From positions 1 through 29,715 of the IMG/VR virus record IMGVR_UViG_3300030329_003523: DNA of 29,715 nt, one strand, 5' to 3'. Shown here piece after piece: positions 2,598 through 29,715 of this stretch. Below the pieces are notes generated by a model. It had not been told where the DNA came from. It was given only the letters and a program-made list of their open reading frames with translations, and searched no databases. This stretch comes from a virus. Both the position numbers and the translations under genes were made by a program. Positions within the stretch are counted from its first letter, which is position 1. The number at the start of each line of letters is the position of its first letter.

Positions 2598-3464
2598 TTA
2601 CGGATTGTTGAAGTTAGCAACTGCACAAGCTGTGCTATCAGCCGCATGACTAGCTTTTGCACCAAAAATAACGTCAGCTACGATTGATGTACTAAGGTAA
2701 TCAATATCATAACTTGACTGTACTCTTGGAGATAGTTGCATAGCAAAGTAAACTGCTTCTCTTTTGAAAAGAGTTGCAGTTTCATCGCCTGTGCCACCAT
2801 CATCATCCCAATCTGTGCTTACGAAAGTTGGAACGCCATATACCATACCAACTGAACCACTTGCAACTGGGTTTGCATCATCGCCTCTACGAGAAGCGTC
2901 ATAAAAGTCCTGCAAAGACAAAGCACTCATGTAACTTGCAGGTGAGCAATATAAGAAAGCTTCACCATCGGTGTATGAATGTCCTGCATCTAGGAACTTT
3001 TGTAAAGCACTTCTGATAAGTGCTGTCGTGAATGTATTGTCTGCACTGAGGGTAACATCATTTCCCGTTTGAGCTTGAAGAACGCTCACTGCAATATAAT
3101 TTTCAATATATTTTGCAATAGCATACCCCATACTCTTAGCATACATATTAAAAAGGTCGGCTGATTCTTGTACTTTGACAATATCGCCAATTCTTTTTGC
3201 TTCGTATGCATGTTGATCTATGGAAAGGTCAACTTTACCATCTGTATTCGCACCGTAAGTAACTGCTGAACCAGAACTTAAAGAAGCTGCTGTTTCTTCT
3301 GAGACTTTTGGAACGTGAATGGTGTCTCCACCTGACGATACAAGACTTGACAAGTCGGTTACTTGATTTCTTAGCTGAAATTGTCTTTCAGCGTAGTCAA
3401 GAATACCGTCTGACCATAGTTCGGGAATAAAATTAGCCGCAGTCGTTAAAGTGACTTCTGCCAT
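2598..3464 (-). CDS. Major capsid protein (HK97-fold type)
   Basis: This 288-residue protein follows the scaffold-like gene after 9 bp. It begins MAEVTLTTAANFIPELWSDG, a pattern common in major capsid proteins that have an N-terminal 'IPELWS' arm. Later segments (VKVQESADLFNMYAKSMGYA; YCSPASYMSALSLQDF; GMVYGVPTFVSTDW) fit the P-domain, spine-helix and A-domain pattern of HK97-fold shells of 280-330 residues. The start has an AGGA ribosome site 8 nt upstream. A strong hairpin follows the stop, which may balance capsid against downstream expression. The order terminase, portal, scaffold, capsid supports the call. A separate protease gene was not seen, in line with an unprocessed capsid with a separate scaffold. 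Confidence 0.88.
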   Translation of the reverse strand: MAEVTLTTAANFIPELWSDGILDYAERQFQLRNQVTDLSSLVSSGGDTIHVPKVSEETAASLSSGSAVTYGANTDGKVDLSIDQHAYEAKRIGDIVKVQESADLFNMYAKSMGYAIAKYIENYIAVSVLQAQTGNDVTLSADNTFTTALIRSALQKFLDAGHSYTDGEAFLYCSPASYMSALSLQDFYDASRRGDDANPVASGSVGMVYGVPTFVSTDWDDDGGTGDETATLFKREAVYFAMQLSPRVQSSYDIDYLSTSIVADVIFGAKASHAADSTACAVANFNNP

Positions 3465-7064: not shown

Positions 7065-7096
7065 AATCCAAAAGGGGGGTGTTTATGGATGAAACA

Positions 7097-14690: not shown

Positions 14691-14757
14691 GGGGTAGTAA
14701 TCAAAGACAATCATCACATACACTCCAATCACATCGCAAACCTCTTTTTACTACCCC
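14691..14757 (+). repeat. 10-bp inverted repeat with 47-base spacer
   Basis: GGGGTAGTAA (14691-14700) is the exact complement of TTACTACCCC (14748-14757). This is the first of three inverted repeats in the 200-bp gap (14649-14848) before the terminal HTH gene; a shorter one, AGGGA/TCCCT, lies at 14774-14794. The gap otherwise holds no ORF. Confidence 0.65.
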
Positions 14758-14800
14758 CCCCTCCTTTAAAATTAGGGAACGAAAGGTAATCCCTGTGGAG

Positions 14801-16056: not shown

Positions 16057-18356
16057 TATACTTCCCTCGCACTAATGTTAATTTCTCCAAGCCTTCTACT
16101 TAAAGATGTAATAATAAATACTTTGCTAGTCCAAGCATTACCAAAAAGCTTACAAGGCATATTATCGTTATCAAAACCAATAAAATTACCAACATCTAGT
16201 AGCTTATCGCTACCTGTTTTAAAATAAGAAGGGTTTATTAGCCTAAAAGAAATTTTTGTTTTTATATCTCCAAATATACTATTATAATATTCAGCAAACC
16301 CACTATTCCTATTTCCAGTAAATCCAGTAGTACCAATGTTGCCAACAAGCATATCTAAAGATATTTCAGTAATATTTTCTTTTGCAGCTATATTCCATTT
16401 TGTTCTTGGAAGTGTACCACTTGCTAAAGTAGATGTTTGTGTAGAAAAATATCTGCTTTCCGCAGGATGTTTTTTATAACTAATATTCATCTTAGTTATT
16501 AGCTCTTCTAATGCGGTATGAGAAATTTGTAGGTTTTGAATATCATTTTTATCAAGAGTGATTTCAGCAGAAGGTGAGTTTGCAATATGAATATAATGCG
16601 AACCAGAACTAGGTGTAAACCTAAAAATAAAACCTCCTTCAAATTGCATTTGATCTAATACGCTTCGTAGCTCTACCTCTTTTAAAGTCCACCATCTAAT
16701 ATCCCAACCATCTCTTGCTGTATCAAGATCACTCCATCCTGTGGGTGTAGTGGTTGCTAAACCTGCATATCGAACTAATAAATCTCTATGAGCTTGATGG
16801 ACTTCTCCAACTGCACCACTTGAACCAGAATAAGTCTCATTTAACCCATCATTTGCGACATAAAGTTTGTCTGCTGGTTCATCAGTAATTCTTTGGGTGC
16901 GACTAAACACATCATACAAATTAAAAACTGCGTTTAATGTTCCTGTTGTAGAAGTGTCGTCTGCTGTAAATCGTACAGTCAATGATACTGTGTCAGTAGA
17001 AGTGGTAAGGTTAAAATATTTTGTTATTGTACTTAGCGTTGATGTTTTAGTTTCAGAAAAAGAATTACCATCGGTGTCAACAAGCAACTTTACACCACTC
17101 AAATCTCCCGAAATACTACTTATGGTAATCCCGTATTTAATCCCCAAAACATTAATCGTATCATTAATTAAAATCTGTGAGCCGTTATCATGTGCAACTG
17201 CTGTTGTTCCTGCAAATCCACGTTCAACAGTTAGGGTGTTTGAAGAAATAGCAGTTACTCTCATCTGTTCTTCATTAATCTTTATAATGTCATATACCGT
17301 TACGTTAGATGCACTAGTAATATCAATAGCTGTCTCAGAATTGCTAATCGCTTCATTAGCAGTTGTTCCTAAAAATCTAAAACTGTCTGATCTGTTCCCC
17401 GATACGCTAGGAAGTTTAAATACATAACTAGCTATATGTATATTGTTTGCGTTAGACTGATTTGAAGTAAAAGTCGCAAGTGTGGAATCGTCAGCATCTA
17501 TAGCGTTTGCTATGTTTGCTACAGTTACACCACTATTACTAGTTTCTTCAGAGCTATCTGCCCGATGTAAAAATGATCGCTTTTGAAAAGGCTCAACTTT
17601 AGCGTGATGAGCATTATCTGTATTGACAGTAGCAGCTTCTGCATTTTCAAGAGGCACAAAGACATCAAGACCTTTTTCATAAACAGCTAATTCTCCACTC
17701 CCAGATGTGGTAACTCCGTCAACATATAATGATTTACCATCACTTATCTTATTAAAAGGAACAGGTCTATATGCTTCACTAGAAAGACTAGAAGTATGTA
17801 ATGGGTTAGCAAAAGTAGTGGCAGCATTTTCTGTAAAATCACCATATGATACAGGAATTAAAATATTATTGGAGGTTGTCCTGTCTTGTGGAATAGTAAT
17901 ATTATCCCAAGGTCTATGAGAAACAATCTCAAATCTTACCCTATCGTCAGTATGAGTTGTAGCAACAAGTCTGCCCTGATATATTTGAACACAATTACTT
18001 AAAGAAGTGTCTCCATTTAATTGAGAGTATATTTTTACAACATGATTTACATAATACCTGCTACCACCTAATACTTCTTCAGACAATAAACCATTTTTAT
18101 AGGGAAAGTTTGCTACATCTAACGATACGTTAGAACTAGAAGCGGTAGAAGAGGCAAGATCAATAGATTCTCTTATGGATGGAAGGTTTAAAACAGCACC
18201 GTAATAAAACATATCAACGGTAGTGTCTTTATAAGAAAGAGCTATGCAGTTAGTAGCATTAGAAGTATCTGTATCATAAAATATTTTAAACAGCCAATTT
18301 TCTTCATAAGGTTTTCCAGCCTTATCTAAATAAGCAGAGGGAACGCTGATGCTCAT
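16056..18356 (-). CDS. Large tail-tip / baseplate hub-like protein
   Basis: The 766-residue protein starts inside the last codons of the tape measure gene (4-bp overlap). Its N-terminus (FYYGAVLNLPSIRESIDLAS; VSLDVANFPYKNGLLSEEVL) resembles baseplate/hub proteins such as DUF2163-like tail proteins. The middle contains a segment ITSASNVTVYDIIKINEEQM followed by LTVERGFAGTTAVAH, a beta-domain seen in many phage structural proteins. The C-terminus (LDVGNFIGFDNDNMPCKLFG) fits hub domains. Such proteins close the tail and contact the fibre or host surface. No peptidase motif seen. Confidence 0.7.
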   Translation of the reverse strand: MSISVPSAYLDKAGKPYEENWLFKIFYDTDTSNATNCIALSYKDTTVDMFYYGAVLNLPSIRESIDLASSTASSSNVSLDVANFPYKNGLLSEEVLGGSRYYVNHVVKIYSQLNGDTSLSNCVQIYQGRLVATTHTDDRVRFEIVSHRPWDNITIPQDRTTSNNILIPVSYGDFTENAATTFANPLHTSSLSSEAYRPVPFNKISDGKSLYVDGVTTSGSGELAVYEKGLDVFVPLENAEAATVNTDNAHHAKVEPFQKRSFLHRADSSEETSNSGVTVANIANAIDADDSTLATFTSNQSNANNIHIASYVFKLPSVSGNRSDSFRFLGTTANEAISNSETAIDITSASNVTVYDIIKINEEQMRVTAISSNTLTVERGFAGTTAVAHDNGSQILINDTINVLGIKYGITISSISGDLSGVKLLVDTDGNSFSETKTSTLSTITKYFNLTTSTDTVSLTVRFTADDTSTTGTLNAVFNLYDVFSRTQRITDEPADKLYVANDGLNETYSGSSGAVGEVHQAHRDLLVRYAGLATTTPTGWSDLDTARDGWDIRWWTLKEVELRSVLDQMQFEGGFIFRFTPSSGSHYIHIANSPSAEITLDKNDIQNLQISHTALEELITKMNISYKKHPAESRYFSTQTSTLASGTLPRTKWNIAAKENITEISLDMLVGNIGTTGFTGNRNSGFAEYYNSIFGDIKTKISFRLINPSYFKTGSDKLLDVGNFIGFDNDNMPCKLFGNAWTSKVFIITSLSRRLGEINISAREV

Positions 18357-20098
18357 ACAAGACCTCTTCTCCTTGCTCTTTGAATAGCAGGAATAATAGA
18401 GTCAACAACTGTATCATCTACAAGGGGTGCATTAATATTAACTGTAACACCTGACGATGCCCCTGCGTTGATTGCTTCAGCCGTTTCTACCCCTATATTT
18501 CTTACAGCATCTTTTGACAAAACAAACTCTCCTGATTGAAGCATAGCTGGTACTTGATCTCCAATAGTAGTTCCACCAACAGCACCACCTACGGCAAACT
18601 TTTGAGACTTAATTGCTTGAACTCTTGCCAACCCTGCCGCATAAGCACCTCCAGCCGCTACAATACTAAAAGGATATGGATAATCTTTCATAGCCCTAGA
18701 TGCTCCTGCATGAGCATTTATCATAGCCTCAAATGCTGCTAAAACTTGAGCCAACTTTGCAGTTTTTTTGTTCGTTGCCGCTAGTTGAGCAAACCCAGAT
18801 AACCCTTGAGCAGTAGCTTTTAGCTTTGATTCTGCAAGTTTAATTTCTGCATTTACTAGCTCATTTTTAATTTGTTTATCTTGAATCTGAAGTCCTATGT
18901 TTTCTTGCAATCCCTTATTTACTTCTTCTTGTGTCTTTCCAAATGTCTCTGTAAGCATATTATTAAATTCTATCTGTTTGCTCCTAGCTATTTCCACCTG
19001 AAGCGAACTTCCCTTTAGGGCGTGTTCAAATTCTAATGACTTTGCTGCTTCGACAGCAAGAGCAGTATCTAGTTTCATTAGTTGGATTCTTTGTTGAAGA
19101 GTTCTATTAATTTCTCCTTGCCCCTTAATATTAGGAGTAAGCTTCTGTGCTGTAATGTCATATAGTTTTGCAGCCTCTGCCATTTCTTGATTTATAGTAG
19201 CAAGACCATCTTTATACTCTTGTGTAGTTATCTTGCCAAATGCCTGTTTATACATTAAACTCAGTTTTCCCAGTTCTATTGTAAATAGATGTACACCTTT
19301 GATTCCCTTTAAAACAATTTCTTTTTGAAAAATCTCAAATGGCACAAGCACTCTTCCCATTACTTCAGACAAATCTCCAAGTTTCATCTCCATTTGTTTT
19401 AGCTCACTTGACCTAAGTTCACGAAGAGCTTTTTGATTTCCTTCTGATGCTTGTGTTAAAACGTCTAATATAAATGCAAATTCTTCTGTTGAACCTTTGG
19501 CTCTTGCTTGAGCTAGTGAAAATTGATCTATATTAATACCAAGCCTACTCATCATTCCCACTTGACCCTTCATAGTCTGACCAACAGCTCTAGTAACAGT
19601 TTCTAAACCATTTTGTCCAACGGAAAGGTCTAAAATATGTGGAATTAATTTTGCTATTGCAGCTTCATTTGCACCAAATTGAGTCAACATCGCCATTTGA
19701 GCAATAATTTGTTCATCGCCAAATTTTGAAGATGTCTGTAAGGCAGAAGCATATTGGATTAATCTTTCACTAGCCTGTTCTGCATTATTGCTAGTTCTTT
19801 GCAGTCCTATCGCCAAAAGAGTTTCTGCCTCTATTTGTTGTATAAACGCTTCTGTTGTTTGCCGACTAGCCCTTCTCAGTCCAGCAGTTGCAAACGTAGC
19901 AAGAAGCAATATATTTCTAAGTTGACCGACACTTCTTCTTAGCCCCGCAGTTGCAACTCGCATACGACCAAACCCCTTAGAGGTTGTAATGGCTCTATCA
20001 CCAGCTCCTTTTACTGATGTGGCAAAAGCTTCTAATTGCTTTTGTGCTTCTTTAGCACCAACTACTGCAACTACTAATTTTAGTTCGCTTTTAGCCAT
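18353..20098 (-). CDS. Tail tape measure protein
   Basis: The start is placed at ATG 20098 (MAKSELKLVVAVVG), overlapping the chaperone stop by 8 bp; an ATG at 20137 would add 13 residues. About 581 residues: N-terminal helical region with a putative hydrophobic segment (NILLLATFATAGLR), a long coiled coil, then YPFSIVAAGGAYAAGLARVQ and QVPAMLQSGEFVLSKDAVRN, the classic C-terminal signature of tape measure proteins ('GE.V....a'). It ends in a basic RARRRGLV. Tape measures set tail length; at about 0.15 nm per residue this suggests a tail under 100 nm. Preceded by the frameshifting chaperone genes, as expected. Confidence 0.9.
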   Translation of the reverse strand: MAKSELKLVVAVVGAKEAQKQLEAFATSVKGAGDRAITTSKGFGRMRVATAGLRRSVGQLRNILLLATFATAGLRRASRQTTEAFIQQIEAETLLAIGLQRTSNNAEQASERLIQYASALQTSSKFGDEQIIAQMAMLTQFGANEAAIAKLIPHILDLSVGQNGLETVTRAVGQTMKGQVGMMSRLGINIDQFSLAQARAKGSTEEFAFILDVLTQASEGNQKALRELRSSELKQMEMKLGDLSEVMGRVLVPFEIFQKEIVLKGIKGVHLFTIELGKLSLMYKQAFGKITTQEYKDGLATINQEMAEAAKLYDITAQKLTPNIKGQGEINRTLQQRIQLMKLDTALAVEAAKSLEFEHALKGSSLQVEIARSKQIEFNNMLTETFGKTQEEVNKGLQENIGLQIQDKQIKNELVNAEIKLAESKLKATAQGLSGFAQLAATNKKTAKLAQVLAAFEAMINAHAGASRAMKDYPYPFSIVAAGGAYAAGLARVQAIKSQKFAVGGAVGGTTIGDQVPAMLQSGEFVLSKDAVRNIGVETAEAINAGASSGVTVNINAPLVDDTVVDSIIPAIQRARRRGLV

Positions 20099-20489
20099 TT
20101 TTTTCGGCTTGATATTTTTCACAAGCCACAATTTCATTTGCTATAATTTTAAATTGATCTAAGCGAATAGAGTTCGCAGAGTCGAGAGAGGTAGAGACAG
20201 GAATGTTAAAGGCTTTACACACAGTATAGTCATCAATTACATCGTACATCCAATGCTCTGTAATATAATCTGGATTAGTAAAAGACGGAAGGAGATGGTA
20301 AAGTTCTTGACCTATGGTTCGTTTCGACTTTTCTTTTATCTCTTGACATAACATATCTACTTCATCATCTATATCTTTTTGCGTTTCAAATTTTTTGCGA
20401 GCATAAGAAGTCGGGGATTGAGCAGAGTAAGGAAGCCTAAAGGTGGTCTTGGGTATGCCGAAAAACCAAAACCATACTGCAACACTCAA
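20091..20489 (-). CDS. Tail assembly chaperone, C-terminal part (gpT-like), reached by -1 frameshift
   Basis: This open frame lies between the G-like gene and the tape measure. It has only a poorly supported TTG start (20489) and no ribosome site. It is in the -1 frame of the preceding gene, and the two are joined at a C CCC CCT heptamer (20507-20501). The -1 frame is open there (YVRGLSVAVWFWFFGIPKT). The expected fusion is about 224 residues: 88 from the first gene plus 136. In lambda and most siphoviruses this gpG/gpGT pair binds the tape measure and recruits tail tube subunits. The C-terminal domain is acidic and helical with a DEVDMLCQEIKEKSK segment. Confidence 0.75.
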   Translation of the reverse strand: MSVAVWFWFFGIPKTTFRLPYSAQSPTSYARKKFETQKDIDDEVDMLCQEIKEKSKRTIGQELYHLLPSFTNPDYITEHWMYDVIDDYTVCKAFNIPVSTSLDSANSIRLDQFKIIANEIVACEKYQAEKNG

Positions 20490-20764
20490 TCCCCTGACGT
20501 AGGGGGGTCTATTCCAAGATAATTTTCAAAAACAGCTTGTAATAAGCTGTCTAAATCTGGTATAGCCAAGCTATGTGCTTCTTTTAACTCTTCTAGCCCT
20601 GACATCTTTAATACTTCGTCTAAAATGTCTTGATAGGCTTCTACTGCTTCAAGAGATTCGTTATCTTGCGAAGCAAATCTTCCACTAAGCCTTTGAAGCT
20701 TTCTTTTTTCAACTAAGGAAATATCCTTTATTTCCCATTCTCGGTCTACGGCTTTTATTATCAT
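20486..20764 (-). CDS. Tail assembly chaperone, N-terminal product (gpG-like)
   Basis: A 92-residue helical protein lying between major tail protein and tape measure. It begins MIIKAVDREWEIKDISLVEK, with a small N-terminal beta-hairpin followed by acidic helices, as in the gpG class. Near its 3' end the frame passes GAC CCC CCT before stopping at TGA 20486-20488. Ribosomes that slip back one base there continue into the downstream frame. The short unslipped form should be the major product. Size and position fit the family. Confidence 0.78.
   Translation of the reverse strand: MIIKAVDREWEIKDISLVEKRKLQRLSGRFASQDNESLEAVEAYQDILDEVLKMSGLEELKEAHSLAIPDLDSLLQAVFENYLGIDPPTSGD
20501..20507 (-). promoter_or_regulatory. 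Programmed -1 frameshift slippery site (C CCC CCT)
   Basis: On the minus strand codons GAC CCC CCT give the heptamer C CCC CCT, an X XXY YYZ site in the zero frame. The -1 frame after it is open into the downstream chaperone frame. A 9-bp stem (TGGTTTTGG/CCAAGACCA, one T-G wobble, 20474-20466 with 20452-20444) lies 26 nt downstream, farther than usual for a stimulator. Confidence 0.7.
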
Positions 20765-20778
20765 AAGAGACTCCCATG

Positions 20779-21822
20779 TTAAGATACTGAAATACTAACC
20801 ACGTTATTTGCCAAAGCTGTATCAAGGAAGAAAGCTCTAAACGGCATTGATTGTGTCATAAAGCTATCTCCAACTTCAGGTTTTGGATTATCAAATTTAA
20901 CCTTTGGAAGGCTAATTGTAAAGTTACTAGCACCAGTAATTGTAAGAGAAACATAATCTGCTGATCCAATAAAATCATCGTATAAGAAGTCTATATTATC
21001 ATCTCGTTTTACATTAATTGTACCACTAACCTCATAACCACCTGTCATAGCATATCCATAAGGTAGGAATGTTTCTGTGCCTGAAGCTGCTGATGCAGGA
21101 GTACAAGCAATTCTCACAATTTCTCTTGAAATAGTAAGGTCATATCCTAAAAGAAAAAGCTCTCTATCGCTACCGTCATTGACCACACAAGTTGTGCTTG
21201 TTAATCTTTTCGGTGTTCCGAGATCAAATGCTGCGGTAGAAGCAAGATAGGCAGTAGCCACTTGCTCAGGTTTATAAGCACTTACAAAGCTTGTAGTTAC
21301 CGAGAGTTCACCACCCTCTGTTCCGTGATCTTGTGCAAGTGTTACGCTTGTACCAAGACAGGATTTATACAGCATATTTGTATTGGAAGAATCCGATGAC
21401 GCATTTTTAATTAAAAGATCAGGTGCTAAAACTGTTGCGGCTGAACCATGAACCATAGAAGTTGGACTGAAAGTTCCTGCTAGTGCCGCATCGGTTACAC
21501 CATCTTCAAAAACAGCATTTGTAGAAGCAAGAACAGAAAAAGCCGAACCTCGTAGCGTTGCATCAATTTGATACATTTGAGTATCAGCTCTGCTATATCC
21601 TTGCGATGTTCCCTCAACATATAGACCTGATCGAGTAGCTGACACTTCTAACGGAGCAGATACATCATCTACTGAAATTTCTGTAGCTTGAAGCCCCTTC
21701 CAAGCGTTACCACTTGCCGTTCCAACAGCAGTTCCTAAGTTATGATTATTGTCAGTATCCGTATGATCTGGTATCCACAGCTCTAAATTGTTTGATGTTT
21801 TAAAAGTTGTATCAGTTGCCAT
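20779..21822 (-). CDS. Major tail (tube) protein
   Basis: The 347-residue protein is rich in T, S, A, D and predicted beta strands, begins MATDTTFKTSNNLELWIPDH, and lies directly upstream of the tail chaperone pair. Segments such as EGTSQGYSRADTQMYQIDAT and LPYGYAMTGGYEVSGTINVK fit tail tube proteins of the siphovirus type with an added domain. The final VSISVS is typical of the last strand. The length is a little above the usual 150-300, suggesting an extra surface domain. Identification rests chiefly on position and composition. Confidence 0.75.
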   Translation of the reverse strand: MATDTTFKTSNNLELWIPDHTDTDNNHNLGTAVGTASGNAWKGLQATEISVDDVSAPLEVSATRSGLYVEGTSQGYSRADTQMYQIDATLRGSAFSVLASTNAVFEDGVTDAALAGTFSPTSMVHGSAATVLAPDLLIKNASSDSSNTNMLYKSCLGTSVTLAQDHGTEGGELSVTTSFVSAYKPEQVATAYLASTAAFDLGTPKRLTSTTCVVNDGSDRELFLLGYDLTISREIVRIACTPASAASGTETFLPYGYAMTGGYEVSGTINVKRDDNIDFLYDDFIGSADYVSLTITGASNFTISLPKVKFDNPKPEVGDSFMTQSMPFRAFFLDTALANNVVSISVS

Positions 21823-22542: not shown

Positions 22543-23563
22543 GATAACTCGTTGATATAGAAGAGTTTAACCGTCTTCTCTTATAGGGATACCTTATGGC
22601 ATTAACATTTTTTGGAAGCCCTGTTTCAGGATGTTCTGCACTAATATCTAATTCCCACTCATCGTTAGTTGTATATACGCCCATACTAAACTGAACATAC
22701 ATACCGTGTCCAACAGCCTGTAAATCACCATTAATTGCCTCTGCACTTGTGGATAATTGTACCTTATATCCATTTTCATTTTTTACATAGGTGGAAAATG
22801 TAACACTTGTATTCTCGCTACCGTAAGAAACTGTACCGCCATTAGCAATAATAATTTTAACTCTATCAGTTGAAGATGGACTTCCTTCTACGTTAATAAT
22901 TGAACCTGTGCTACTACCACCATACGTTACAGGATTAACGATACCTTTTTTCTTGGAGAAATCAGTTTCGTTCCAAAGTCTTATCTCACCTCGTTTAATT
23001 TTATCTAGATAGCCACTTTCTTCATCTATGTCGTAAGCGTGTTTTTCAATTTCTTCAGCTCGGTCAGGATCATATGGTCTTACTAAATATGCACACGCAA
23101 TAATAGCATTACACCTAATGATAATGTCCTCAAAATCTCTAGTAGTTGATCCTTGAACACCAACACCTCTTCGTTTATAAATAGGTTTACCAAGATATGA
23201 CCTAATAAATTCTGCCCCTCTTTTTATAGCCTCTGTTTTAAGCTCAGAGTAATCTCTACCACCCTCTACAATATGATGAGTCATAGGGTTATTAGAAGAA
23301 TGTACATAGGTAGTATCTGTAGAGGTATCGTAAAACCATTCTCCATCTGTATCTACATCACTTAATGATGATTGAGCATCACCAAGATCAAAGTTGTCTC
23401 TAAATAAAGTGTCAACGGTTCCTGTTGAACCTGCTTTAAAAACATTATCTCCATGATGTATCCAGCCTGTGATAGGAATTTTTCTATCAAAAGCCTGTAT
23501 ATCAGGTACTACAAACTCTAGGTCAGTAGTAGTATTACAAAAAAAGTCTTCGTATGAACTCAT
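22535..23563 (-). CDS. Head-tail connector (gp6/DUF1320-like) with extra flanking domains
   Basis: Residues about 100-200 (DYSELKTEAIKRGAEFIRSY; DIIIRCNAIIACAYLVRPYD; YLDKIKRGEIRLW) match the helical core of gp6-type head-tail adaptors, which bind beneath the portal. The first 100 residues and the C-terminal 140 (RVKIIIANGGTVSYGSENTS; DEWELDISAEHPETGLPKNV) are beta-rich additions, making 342 residues where typical adaptors have 100-150. The start overlaps the upstream stop (ATGA). Adaptor assignment is fairly good; the role of the added domains is unknown. Confidence 0.65.
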   Translation of the reverse strand: MSSYEDFFCNTTTDLEFVVPDIQAFDRKIPITGWIHHGDNVFKAGSTGTVDTLFRDNFDLGDAQSSLSDVDTDGEWFYDTSTDTTYVHSSNNPMTHHIVEGGRDYSELKTEAIKRGAEFIRSYLGKPIYKRRGVGVQGSTTRDFEDIIIRCNAIIACAYLVRPYDPDRAEEIEKHAYDIDEESGYLDKIKRGEIRLWNETDFSKKKGIVNPVTYGGSSTGSIINVEGSPSSTDRVKIIIANGGTVSYGSENTSVTFSTYVKNENGYKVQLSTSAEAINGDLQAVGHGMYVQFSMGVYTTNDEWELDISAEHPETGLPKNVNAIRYPYKRRRLNSSISTSYHG

Positions 23564-23760
23564 GCTTCAGCCCCTTTTAAGAATTCGGGATCAACTAAAG
23601 ATGGAATATCTATCTCAATTTCAATGACCCGAATAATCTCTTCTATGTAGCAAATAGCCATATCTTCATCATCTTTATAACATGATTCTTTATAGCCTAC
23701 TGCTAGTTTTTTTAATTCTAAAATTGCTTCTCCCAAGTTTAACGGTGTTTTAGTTTGCAA
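23560..23760 (-). CDS. Small acidic protein between phosphoesterase and connector, 66 aa
   Basis: The frame can be opened at 23829, but that part overlaps the phosphoesterase end. A TTG at 23760 with GGGGGCAAG upstream gives a cleaner start. The protein is helical with conserved-looking LNLGEAILELKKLAVGYKES and an acidic C-terminus (IEIEIDIPSLVDPEFLKGAE). Its TGA overlaps the connector start (ATGA). Unknown function. Confidence 0.55.
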   Translation of the reverse strand: MQTKTPLNLGEAILELKKLAVGYKESCYKDDEDMAICYIEEIIRVIEIEIDIPSLVDPEFLKGAEA

Positions 23761-24508
23761 CAATTTCTTGCCCCCAGACTGATGCTTTTCCTTTTTGGAT
23801 ATCAATAACCTCAATTTGAAAATTTCCATTACTTTGCCAAGTTATAATGCCAAACGCATGACACCAATTATGAAGCCTTCCTCTTAACCACTTATTCTTG
23901 TCTCCTGACATGTTTTTTAAACAACCCATTGACCACGCTGCTATTGTGCCTGAGTCAAGCTTTGTAAGAGTATGTCTTTGAACATCATGTGTATGTCCGT
24001 AGCAAATGTTTGACCCGTATGCTTCAAGATGTTTCTTAGCGTGATAGGTAGTTGCATAAGCCCCATGAATAAAGTTGATTTTGCCAAGTTTTAGTGGTTT
24101 GTTATGCTCATAATATTTGTACCCTCGTTCATCTAATAAACAAGCTTTGCGAAAAGTATAGCCTTTAAGATATGGGAATTTTTCGACAAACATATCAAGC
24201 CATTCATCGTGATTCCCCTGTAACATATACCTTGTTTTGCATTTTACTTTATCTAAAGCTCTGTCAATTTTATCAAGCCCCTCATTTACCAGTTCAATCT
24301 CTTCATCTATGAAAGGTAACTGGTATTCAAGTGGAGGGCATTTCCTTCGTTTCCACCTCCACGCACTAACACTTTCCCACTCTCCAACATCTCCTAAGTT
24401 AATTGCAATATCAGGCTTAATAATTTGTATTCCTTGTAGTAAAACCGACAATGCTTTATCGTCTACTAAAGGAAAATGCTGATCTGATATTACAACAGCT
24501 CTTTTCAC
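23750..24508 (-). CDS. Calcineurin-like metallophosphoesterase
   Basis: The 252-residue enzyme has all the two-metal phosphoesterase motifs: SDQH (D9, H11), GD (D40), GNHD (N99-D101), IHG (H148) and GHTH (H172, H174). These coordinate two metal ions and hydrolyse phosphodiesters or phosphomonoesters. It lies between the lysozyme and the head-tail connector in the late arm. Phage homologues are of unknown substrate; nucleotide, DNA-end or cell-envelope substrates are all possible. The fold and catalytic set are convincing. Late position hints at a virion or lysis-stage role rather than replication. Confidence 0.88.
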   Translation of the reverse strand: MKRAVVISDQHFPLVDDKALSVLLQGIQIIKPDIAINLGDVGEWESVSAWRWKRRKCPPLEYQLPFIDEEIELVNEGLDKIDRALDKVKCKTRYMLQGNHDEWLDMFVEKFPYLKGYTFRKACLLDERGYKYYEHNKPLKLGKINFIHGAYATTYHAKKHLEAYGSNICYGHTHDVQRHTLTKLDSGTIAAWSMGCLKNMSGDKNKWLRGRLHNWCHAFGIITWQSNGNFQIEVIDIQKGKASVWGQEIVAN

Positions 24509-26971: not shown

Positions 26972-29715
26972 TTACTTATTATAGATATAGTAAAAATCTA
27001 TACCACTTTCTAAGTTCTTTTGTTTGACCCAATGACTTGGAATAATTGCACTTGTACGAACAGGTACTTGCCCAAGCAATCCAACAATAGCCCACTCTTT
27101 CGGTCTATCATTTCTTGCTATATACGGGATAGAAGGATCATAGCTATCACTATACTTTCTACGCTTTCCTGTAGTTTGTTTGAAGTTAGTGGCTGCTTTT
27201 TCTTCCTCAGTAGAGGGAACAACCACAGGCACTTTATTTCCTTCTTTATTAAGATAAAAATTAGATTCTTTTGTATGCCACCCTTTATCTCTGCCTACAT
27301 CAGCTCGTAATCTATAAGCTGGAATTTCGTCCTGATGATACCCATGACGATAAAGACCCTTACCATTTGCTCCCAATTCATCCCATGCTACATTTGTATA
27401 ATCTTCCATTTCATACTCATTCCACACATTACGAACATATTTGTCTTTCCATTTCAGACCATCTCCATGAACAGCTGTTCCCCTAGGTCTTATTACTCCT
27501 AATATTTTATCTTCTTCCCCTGCTTCTGCAAGTCTAATCTTATCGCCATCTAGCACAACACTCATTCCATACATATCTTTTACCGCATCATCAGAATCAA
27601 GCTCTGTTTTCCATTCAAAAAACTCAGCATAATCCCATTGATTATCTATCCATCCACCATCGGCTCTAGCGTTACCATCTGAATCAAAACGAAAAGTTTG
27701 ACCTGCGGTATTATCATTAAAATTTAATTCTAGTTGAGCACTTGCATTATGTTTGAAGTTGGCAATATCCTCAGAGTCATCACCTTGATCTGCGTAAAAA
27801 TATAATATCGCATGCTCGTCTTCACCACCAGCAATATTTAGATTAGTATTATCCGTACTGCCAGCCCCGATATGGAAATTAATTCTTCCTTCATTTGTAC
27901 CAAATCCTTGTGTAGCACCCTTGTTAATCTGACCATCACTTTCACCGTCCAACAAGCCCATCCAAATATCATTACCTGTTCCCCAAACAATTCCTTTGTC
28001 ATCGTCTAGATGAAGGTCTGAATTAAATTCAGCTAATCCAGCAACAATAAGTGTTGAAGCCATATCAACAGCACCGTCAATATCCACCACGTCAAGATTA
28101 GCCGTTCCATCTACGTCAATATCCCCGCTTATATCTAACGTAGCTGCGTCTATTTCACCTGCGACTGTTACTAATCCGTCTGCAACAGTTATCAAATCAG
28201 TATCATCAGTATGCCCAATCGTTGTTCCATTAATTAATACATTATCAATATCAAGAGAACCACCTGAAATAAGTCCAGTTGTAGTGATCGTTGAACTGCC
28301 TGTATCAATACTTCCAAATCCTGATGTGATCGAACCGCTATTTAACGCACCTGTTGTTACTATATTCCCACCACCTACGTTATGACTTGCAAAATATGTT
28401 GAAACTGTATCAACATTAGTCATACGCATAGTGCCACCATCATTGATTAAGATACCATCACCAGATGCTACGGCTGTCGTGCCTCTAGCTGTGCCACCAT
28501 CTATTAAATTTAATTCGGATGCTGTGGCTGATACTGCCGTGCTACCCAACACTAACTGTCCGTCAGGTACAACTACTCTAGCCGCACCATTAAAAATCAG
28601 ATCGTCTGCCGATGTATCCCATGTTATATTAGCCGAAGCTGTATCTCCGTAGAATATAATATCATAACCTTGATCATTAGCACCAACTGTAACTGTATTG
28701 TCAATTTGTACCGCACCATCTATATCTACTGCATCAAGGTTTGATGTGCCGTCAATATCTATATTTCCACTAATATCTAACTCTGTAGCAACTACTTTAT
28801 TATTAAAAGTTGCAGCACCTGCTTCTGACCCATCTAAAGTCAGCATCGTAATATCAGAGTTATTATCTGTACCTTTAAAAATAATATCTGTGTCATTAGC
28901 AGCAGCATCAATGGTTATATCTCCAGAAGATGTTGAAAGGGTGACTGCTCCATCACCTACAGTAAGATCGTCAGCAGCAATACTTCCACTTGTATAAGCG
29001 TTCAAAGCTGTAACAGCTACCTGTTTCATCGTTCCGTTATCGTTAAGAATAATTCTGTCATCATCAGCTATAGTAACTGAAGAAGCACTATTATCTCCAT
29101 CAAGAATATTTAGCTCTGCCGTAGTAGACGTCATTGTATCTAAGACATTAAGTTCAGCCGCAGTAGTGGTTACTGCTGTTCCACCAATAAGAAGCTTATC
29201 TTTAACAATATCAACAACAGCCCCACCTGCTGTCAAAAGTTTATCAGCACTTTCATCCCACAATAAATAAGCACCAGAGGTATCTCCAAAAAGTTTTACA
29301 TCTTTACCTGTTCCATCAACCCCTACTGTAAGTGTACCATCAAGCTGAACATCCCCATCTATATCTACATCATCTAAATTAGCTGTGCCGTCTATGTCAG
29401 CAGCTCCAGAAATATCTAAAGTAGTAGCATCTAATTCACCTGCTACTGTTAGAACACCACTTGCAACAGTTATTAGGTCTGTATCTGATGTGTGTCCTAT
29501 AGTAGCTCCGTTAATAATAACATTATCAACAGTAAGAGTAGTAAGCGTTCCTAAACTTGTAATATTACCTTGAGCCGCAGTTTGAAGTGTGCCTGTTACA
29601 TTCCCTGTAACATCTCCTGTTACATCTCCTTCTAAGTTGGCAACAATAGTTCCTGCTGTCCCTGATACTACATCCGAGCTAAAGGAAGCATCTGGAATAT
29701 AAGTAAGCTTCGGTG
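26972..29715 (-). CDS. Tail fibre/appendage protein, C-terminal part with autoproteolytic Peptidase G2-like domain
   Basis: This is the rest of the 1,596-residue fibre begun at 2169. The frame is open from the window end (TSGAYLLWDESADKLLTAGG around 29245-29280) to TAA at 26972; a shorter start at TTG 29263 is not real. The shaft has repeats such as LDISGDIDVDGTANLD (near 28080-28150, 28700-28790 and 29350-29440) and the 'TIGHTxDTDLITVA' block. The last about 230 residues begin WDYAEFFEWKTELDSDDAVK and include YGMSVVLDGDKIRLAEAGEE, matching the Peptidase G2 intramolecular chaperone domain of phi29-like appendages. That domain assists trimer folding and then cleaves itself off. It precedes the lysis cassette. 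Confidence 0.85.
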   Translation of the reverse strand, partial: PKLTYIPDASFSSDVVSGTAGTIVANLEGDVTGDVTGNVTGTLQTAAQGNITSLGTLTTLTVDNVIINGATIGHTSDTDLITVASGVLTVAGELDATTLDISGAADIDGTANLDDVDIDGDVQLDGTLTVGVDGTGKDVKLFGDTSGAYLLWDESADKLLTAGGAVVDIVKDKLLIGGTAVTTTAAELNVLDTMTSTTAELNILDGDNSASSVTIADDDRIILNDNGTMKQVAVTALNAYTSGSIAADDLTVGDGAVTLSTSSGDITIDAAANDTDIIFKGTDNNSDITMLTLDGSEAGAATFNNKVVATELDISGNIDIDGTSNLDAVDIDGAVQIDNTVTVGANDQGYDIIFYGDTASANITWDTSADDLIFNGAARVVVPDGQLVLGSTAVSATASELNLIDGGTARGTTAVASGDGILINDGGTMRMTNVDTVSTYFASHNVGGGNIVTTGALNSGSITSGFGSIDTGSSTITTTGLISGGSLDIDNVLINGTTIGHTDDTDLITVADGLVTVAGEIDAATLDISGDIDVDGTANLDVVDIDGAVDMASTLIVAGLAEFNSDLHLDDDKGIVWGTGNDIWMGLLDGESDGQINKGATQGFGTNEGRINFHIGAGSTDNTNLNIAGGEDEHAILYFYADQGDDSEDIANFKHNASAQLELNFNDNTAGQTFRFDSDGNARADGGWIDNQWDYAEFFEWKTELDSDDAVKDMYGMSVVLDGDKIRLAEAGEEDKILGVIRPRGTAVHGDGLKWKDKYVRNVWNEYEMEDYTNVAWDELGANGKGLYRHGYHQDEIPAYRLRADVGRDKGWHTKESNFYLNKEGNKVPVVVPSTEEEKAATNFKQTTGKRRKYSDSYDPSIPYIARNDRPKEWAIVGLLGQVPVRTSAIIPSHWVKQKNLESGIDFYYIYNK
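29594..29715. repeat. Terminal overlap, right copy (matches 1-122)
   Basis: Second copy of bases 1-122, with T at 29693 instead of C at 100. It keeps the fibre codon phase, so removing one copy joins the two fibre parts into a single uninterrupted frame of 4,791 bp. Confidence 0.85.

Follow-up and report, generated by a model that had tools for sequence, protein, structure and literature searches.

The tail genes of this virus record raise the question of how two overlapping reading frames, lying immediately ahead of the tape measure gene, are translated. The stretch of DNA analysed, called the window throughout, constitutes a virus record of 29.7 kb. The tape measure gene (18353..20098, minus strand) was recognised by its match to a PHROG tape measure profile (E 1.4e-8, over 18353-20107), and its ATG overlaps the end of the second frame. 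The gene on the other side of the pair (20779..21822, minus strand) is by position the probable major tail (tube) protein; its product showed weak similarity to the equivalent gene of locus L082 and gave no PHROG match in the profile search. The same gene order is present in the relatives. At this place phage lambda reportedly uses the G/GT frameshift, and Levin in 1993 and Xu in 2004 are said to have described it and its counterparts in most long-tailed phages. The two frames analysed here are very probably joined in the same way, by a lambda G/GT-type programmed -1 ribosomal frameshift, as judged from the sequence of the window and its relatives.

The upstream frame (zero frame; 20486..20764, minus strand) encodes a putative G-like tail chaperone of 92 aa and ends at a TGA (20488-20486). 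The minus strand at this site reads GGA ATA GAC CCC CCT ACG TCA GGG GAT TGA, and the first-pass annotation was right in seeing C CCC CCT (20507-20501, minus strand) as an in-phase heptamer. It lies four codons ahead of the stop of the zero frame. Relative to this frame, the second one has the -1 phase and stays open through the heptamer, as had also been noted; it is in fact open already from 20525 and runs to a stop at 20091. The overlap of the two frames spans 40 nt and contains one perfect heptamer. After a slip, the -1 frame (20091..20501, minus strand) would add a T-like extension of 136 codons plus the stop, and our recount of the slip product (88 + 136 = 224 residues) reproduced the fusion of about 224 aa proposed at first. 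A +1 shift at CCC CCT would not lead into the downstream frame, which is -1, and was rejected as a reading. Perfect in-phase heptamers occur at 65 of the 8842 codon positions in this genome (0.74%), and the chance of finding one is about 8% anywhere in the overlap and 0.7% at the single position used by the relatives. As it would arise by chance in about 8% of such overlaps, the heptamer alone is suggestive, not decisive. Among the genes counted, this is the only site with an in-phase CCCCCC. Only two other runs of at least six C or G are present in the window, CCCCCC on the minus strand immediately before the terminase start (7074-7079) and CCCCCCCC on the plus strand in an intergenic gap (14754-14761).

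Scans of viral contigs with single proteins (either frame or the tube protein) returned no relatives, and tail loci were found through alignment queries for the next tail gene and the tape measure C-terminus. An alignment query built from the downstream frame of three viruses yielded 38 loci with 33-48% identity; many of these are near-identical to each other, and together with the window they represent 26 distinct slip regions. All of them (38/38) have the downstream frame in the -1 phase and carry, at the homologous position, an X XXY YYZ heptamer in phase; it lies exactly four codons before the upstream stop in 37 and three codons before it in L173. Comparison of related phages therefore bore out the reading phase in full and the heptamer in part: its presence and position are conserved, but its letters vary. 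The relatives carry AAAAAAA, AAAAAAG, GGGAAAC, GGGAAAA or CCCTTTA, and CCCCCCT, present in none of the 38, is peculiar to the window, in agreement with the initial remark that an all-C site is less common than A/G-rich ones. The zero-frame endings can also be aligned (GIDPPTSGD-stop in the window; GIDPAKKDSGG-stop and GFNSGNITGD-stop in relatives). The sister pair L136/L141 (around 2983-3004) has GGGAAAC in one and CCCTTTA in the other, at the same position and with the stem retained. By comparison of the two sequences, the slippery heptamer has recently been replaced as a whole, and the site is therefore kept while its letters are exchanged. The full-length upstream frame could not be read in L132 (IMGVR_UViG_3300039050_000029), which has ten N inside this gene around 1523-1533.

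The -1 phase was also present in 20 more distant tail loci, whose overlaps carry GGGAAAC, A-runs or GGGGGAR; in that comparison, 21 loci besides the window had a second frame in this phase and open through the slip site. There is no ATG, GTG or TTG anywhere in the downstream frame of L103 (111-635) and L105 (3891-4412), and in L091 (3632-4114) and L095 (744-1262) the first usual start codon lies at the very end of this frame. The likely slip site of these four loci is GGGGGAR, which departs from a perfect X XXY YYZ. From their sequences, ribosomal slippage seems to be obligatory in them, on a non-canonical site. Scans of bacterial genomes and of annotated phages gave no relative of the downstream frame. 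The 20 near relatives identified through the terminase have no fragment covering the tail genes, and hence offer no near-identical C run for comparison. In the tree of the downstream frame, the window sits on a long branch whose place is uncertain.

Next to the heptamer, a 6-nt spacer (ACGTCA, 20495..20500, minus strand) is followed by an outer 10-bp stem. Its 5' arm (GGGGATTGAG, 20485..20494, minus strand) holds the zero-frame stop and pairs with a 3' arm (CTCAATCCCC) at 20413..20422 (minus strand). Nested within it, in the fold of 20500-20440, is an inner 9-bp hairpin formed by TGGTTTTGG (20466..20474, minus strand) and CCAAGACCA (20444..20452, minus strand). This inner hairpin is the 9-bp stem that the first-pass annotation had located 26 nt downstream; it is real, but the stronger outer stem that encloses it had been missed. 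The 95 nt after the heptamer fold with -33 kcal/mol (z -3.4; equally stable shuffles 0/200), which is the most stable of the 927 windows folded across the tail module. The outer-stem pairs are formed in 100% of cells (10 bp in 10 distinct sequences), compared to 23-43% in controls with a slid partner. Covariation in the ten sequences amounts to one two-sided change (C-G in eight, G-C in two), limited to one of the ten pairs, and three one-sided changes. Moreover, a stem of 9-14 bp starts 1-6 nt after the heptamer in 26/26 distinct sequences of the close family, the window included; the L147-L172 group has the stem CCGGGGGTT/AACTCCCGG at the same place, and L173 has a 14-bp stem of different sequence. 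The 10-bp outer stem is accordingly our candidate for the main stimulator, on the pairing and comparison just described. A second proposed structure, a CCCCT/AGGGG hairpin over the slip site itself, can form, but it reaches only -6.9 kcal/mol alone and shares its AGGGG with the larger stem; as a conserved signal it was rejected, since relatives with A- or G-rich heptamers cannot form one.

The products of both frames were analysed by structure prediction and profile searches. When translated from the heptamer onward, the downstream frame gives a confident AlphaFold2 model (pLDDT 92.6) whose first helix starts at residue 2; the model of the upstream 92-aa protein is fair (pLDDT 84.9), with residues 88-92 disordered. 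As this zero-frame tail is predicted to be disordered, whereas the -1 frame is predicted to continue folded, the former looks like a mere ending. Fold searches of the PDB returned nothing convincing, and the search of viral models returned only unnamed homologues and one identical entry: the 92-aa protein and A0A516L1M0 (BFVD/UniProt) share 100% identity along the full 92 aa, which indicates that the same or a near-identical virus was deposited earlier. Matches of both proteins to named chaperone families were all below threshold. The C-terminal 50 residues of the downstream frame matched phrog_9001 (tail assembly chaperone) with E 0.07. In the 23-member alignment of upstream proteins, weak matches to PF10109 (Phage_TAC_7; tail assembly chaperone proteins E, or 41 or 14) were obtained for six relatives (best E 0.0083) and none for the 92-aa protein of the window, which resembles this family in position and size.

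The heptamer, its phase and conserved position, the -1 phase of the second frame and the covarying stem were seen directly in this work, and from them we infer the slippage itself, its efficiency and the roles of both products. The majority of ribosomes would reach the TGA of the upstream gene and release the 92-aa tail chaperone. A minority, slowed by the branched stem 6 nt past the heptamer, would shift back by one base at C CCC CCT, the prolyl-tRNA on CCC re-pairing with CCC and the prolyl-tRNA on CCT re-pairing with CCC. Re-pairing would be good at both codons, because both slipped prolyl-tRNAs land on CCC. The slipped ribosomes would then continue in the -1 frame to give the 224-aa fusion, with a predicted junction peptide ...GIDPPYVRGLSVAVW... 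Lambda makes G and GT in a 30:1 ratio, and the proteins they act on are those of the tape measure and the tube (PMC5009743). By analogy, coating of the tape measure protein would fall to the short form and recruitment of the tail tube protein to the long one.

Three other explanations of the two frames were weighed against programmed -1 frameshifting. Ribosomes might terminate at the TGA (20488-20486) and restart on a TTG to make a separate 132-aa protein. The second frame had been described as having no good start, which holds only partly: a TTG does overlap the stop (TTGA; 20487..20489, minus strand) in the window and in many relatives, but the AGGGG that would serve it lies merely about 1 nt ahead. 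The conservation of this TTG can be explained without restart, because its bases sit in a stem arm. L146 and L173 lack it, as do L147-L149 and the loci near-identical to these, where TTAAG takes its place; the heptamer, by contrast, is present throughout. L103 and L105 have no usual start codon in the whole downstream frame. In the model of the downstream product, in addition, the first helix already starts at the heptamer, which lies upstream of the TTG. Since several relatives have no such start, we regard restart at the TTG as very improbable.

Errors or slippage in the C run itself would account for the frames differently. A six-C run is a usual place for indel errors in sequencing or assembly, and with one more C (a true run of seven) both frames would be a single gene. 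Yet no fused single frame, the arrangement that would have spoken against a frameshift from the start, was found in any of the relatives, and beyond the heptamer the relatives keep the length of the zero-frame ending and part of its sequence, which is to be expected only of a translated stretch. The identical 92-aa entry A0A516L1M0 also argues against an error, though it may come from the same source. As relatives whose sites are not homopolymers keep the two-frame layout and a similar zero-frame ending, a homopolymer error is hard to believe in. RNA polymerase, on the other hand, might add or drop a base in the C run, so that normal translation of the altered mRNA would yield the fusion. Homopolymer runs can cause such slippage, and the A-runs of many relatives would allow it likewise; however, six C is a short run, several relatives carry GGGAAAC or CCCTTTA at this place, and a conserved stem at ribosome spacing suits ribosomal slippage. 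We consider transcriptional slippage to be just as remote as a miscounted C run, and both to be even less probable than restart.

The programmed -1 frameshift proposed for this locus is ordinary in kind, and what is unusual is the slip site. The lambda G/GT frameshift has counterparts in most long-tailed phages (PMC5009743), and the window shares with it the overlapping frames between tube and tape measure genes, a second frame in the -1 phase, a heptamer near the end of the first frame and, by inference for the window, a fusion that is by design the minor product. It differs from lambda in the heptamer (CCCCCCT), in the strong branched stem 6 nt on and in having no above-threshold similarity to chaperone families. 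A heptamer shortly followed by a branched hairpin is also found in IS911-type signals with branched or three-way stimulators (PMC5009743, PMC4066793), but here the gene is a phage tail gene, not a transposase, and no clear upstream Shine-Dalgarno-like stimulator was established in the window. According to PMC4066793, stimulator structures generally begin 5-8 nt downstream of the slippery sequence.

The same study describes reporter tests of all 64 heptamers in E. coli, which may not be the host of this virus, and lists C_CCC_CCC among the efficient motifs; the tetramers C_CC.U and C_CC.C also shift (PMC4066793). These results with C heptamers make C CCC CCT a plausible slip site, with the reservation that the C_CCC_CCN reporters, although of the same motif class, are artificial constructs, whereas the window holds a natural gene of an uncultured virus. 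In the survey of IS1 and IS3 elements given there, 72% of the heptamers are A_AA.A_AA.G or A_AA.A_AA.A (PMC4066793), and it is by this measure that an all-C site is unusual. A literature search of partial coverage returned no paper naming CCCCCCT as a phage slip site.

A functional natural all-C heptamer read by tandem proline tRNAs, in a family where heptamers are swapped freely and the stem sets the product ratio, is a reading we put forward tentatively, at somewhat less than even chances. It is defined by the exchange of heptamers (all-A, G/A, C/U and all-C) with position and branched stem kept. With this locus, the well-known tail-assembly frameshift reaches an uncultured virus group in which profile searches miss the genes, and natural use of a C-only slip site gains support; the literature found knows C-only sites from reporter constructs. 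Six different heptamers, all at a single homologous site and combined with a stimulator whose position is conserved, constitute a natural series, which could be used to test how heptamer and stem strength are traded off in holding the product ratio.

Elsewhere in the record, a 122-base repeat with one mismatch was found at the window ends (1-122 and 29594-29715), and the genome in this record is therefore probably circular or has terminal redundancy. Two frames, of 723 and 913 aa, are open at the ends, and when joined they would form a single large, repetitive gene for a tail or fibre protein. An 89-aa frame (23560-23829, minus strand) overlaps the end of a phosphoesterase-like gene (23750-24508, minus strand) by 80 nt in another phase.
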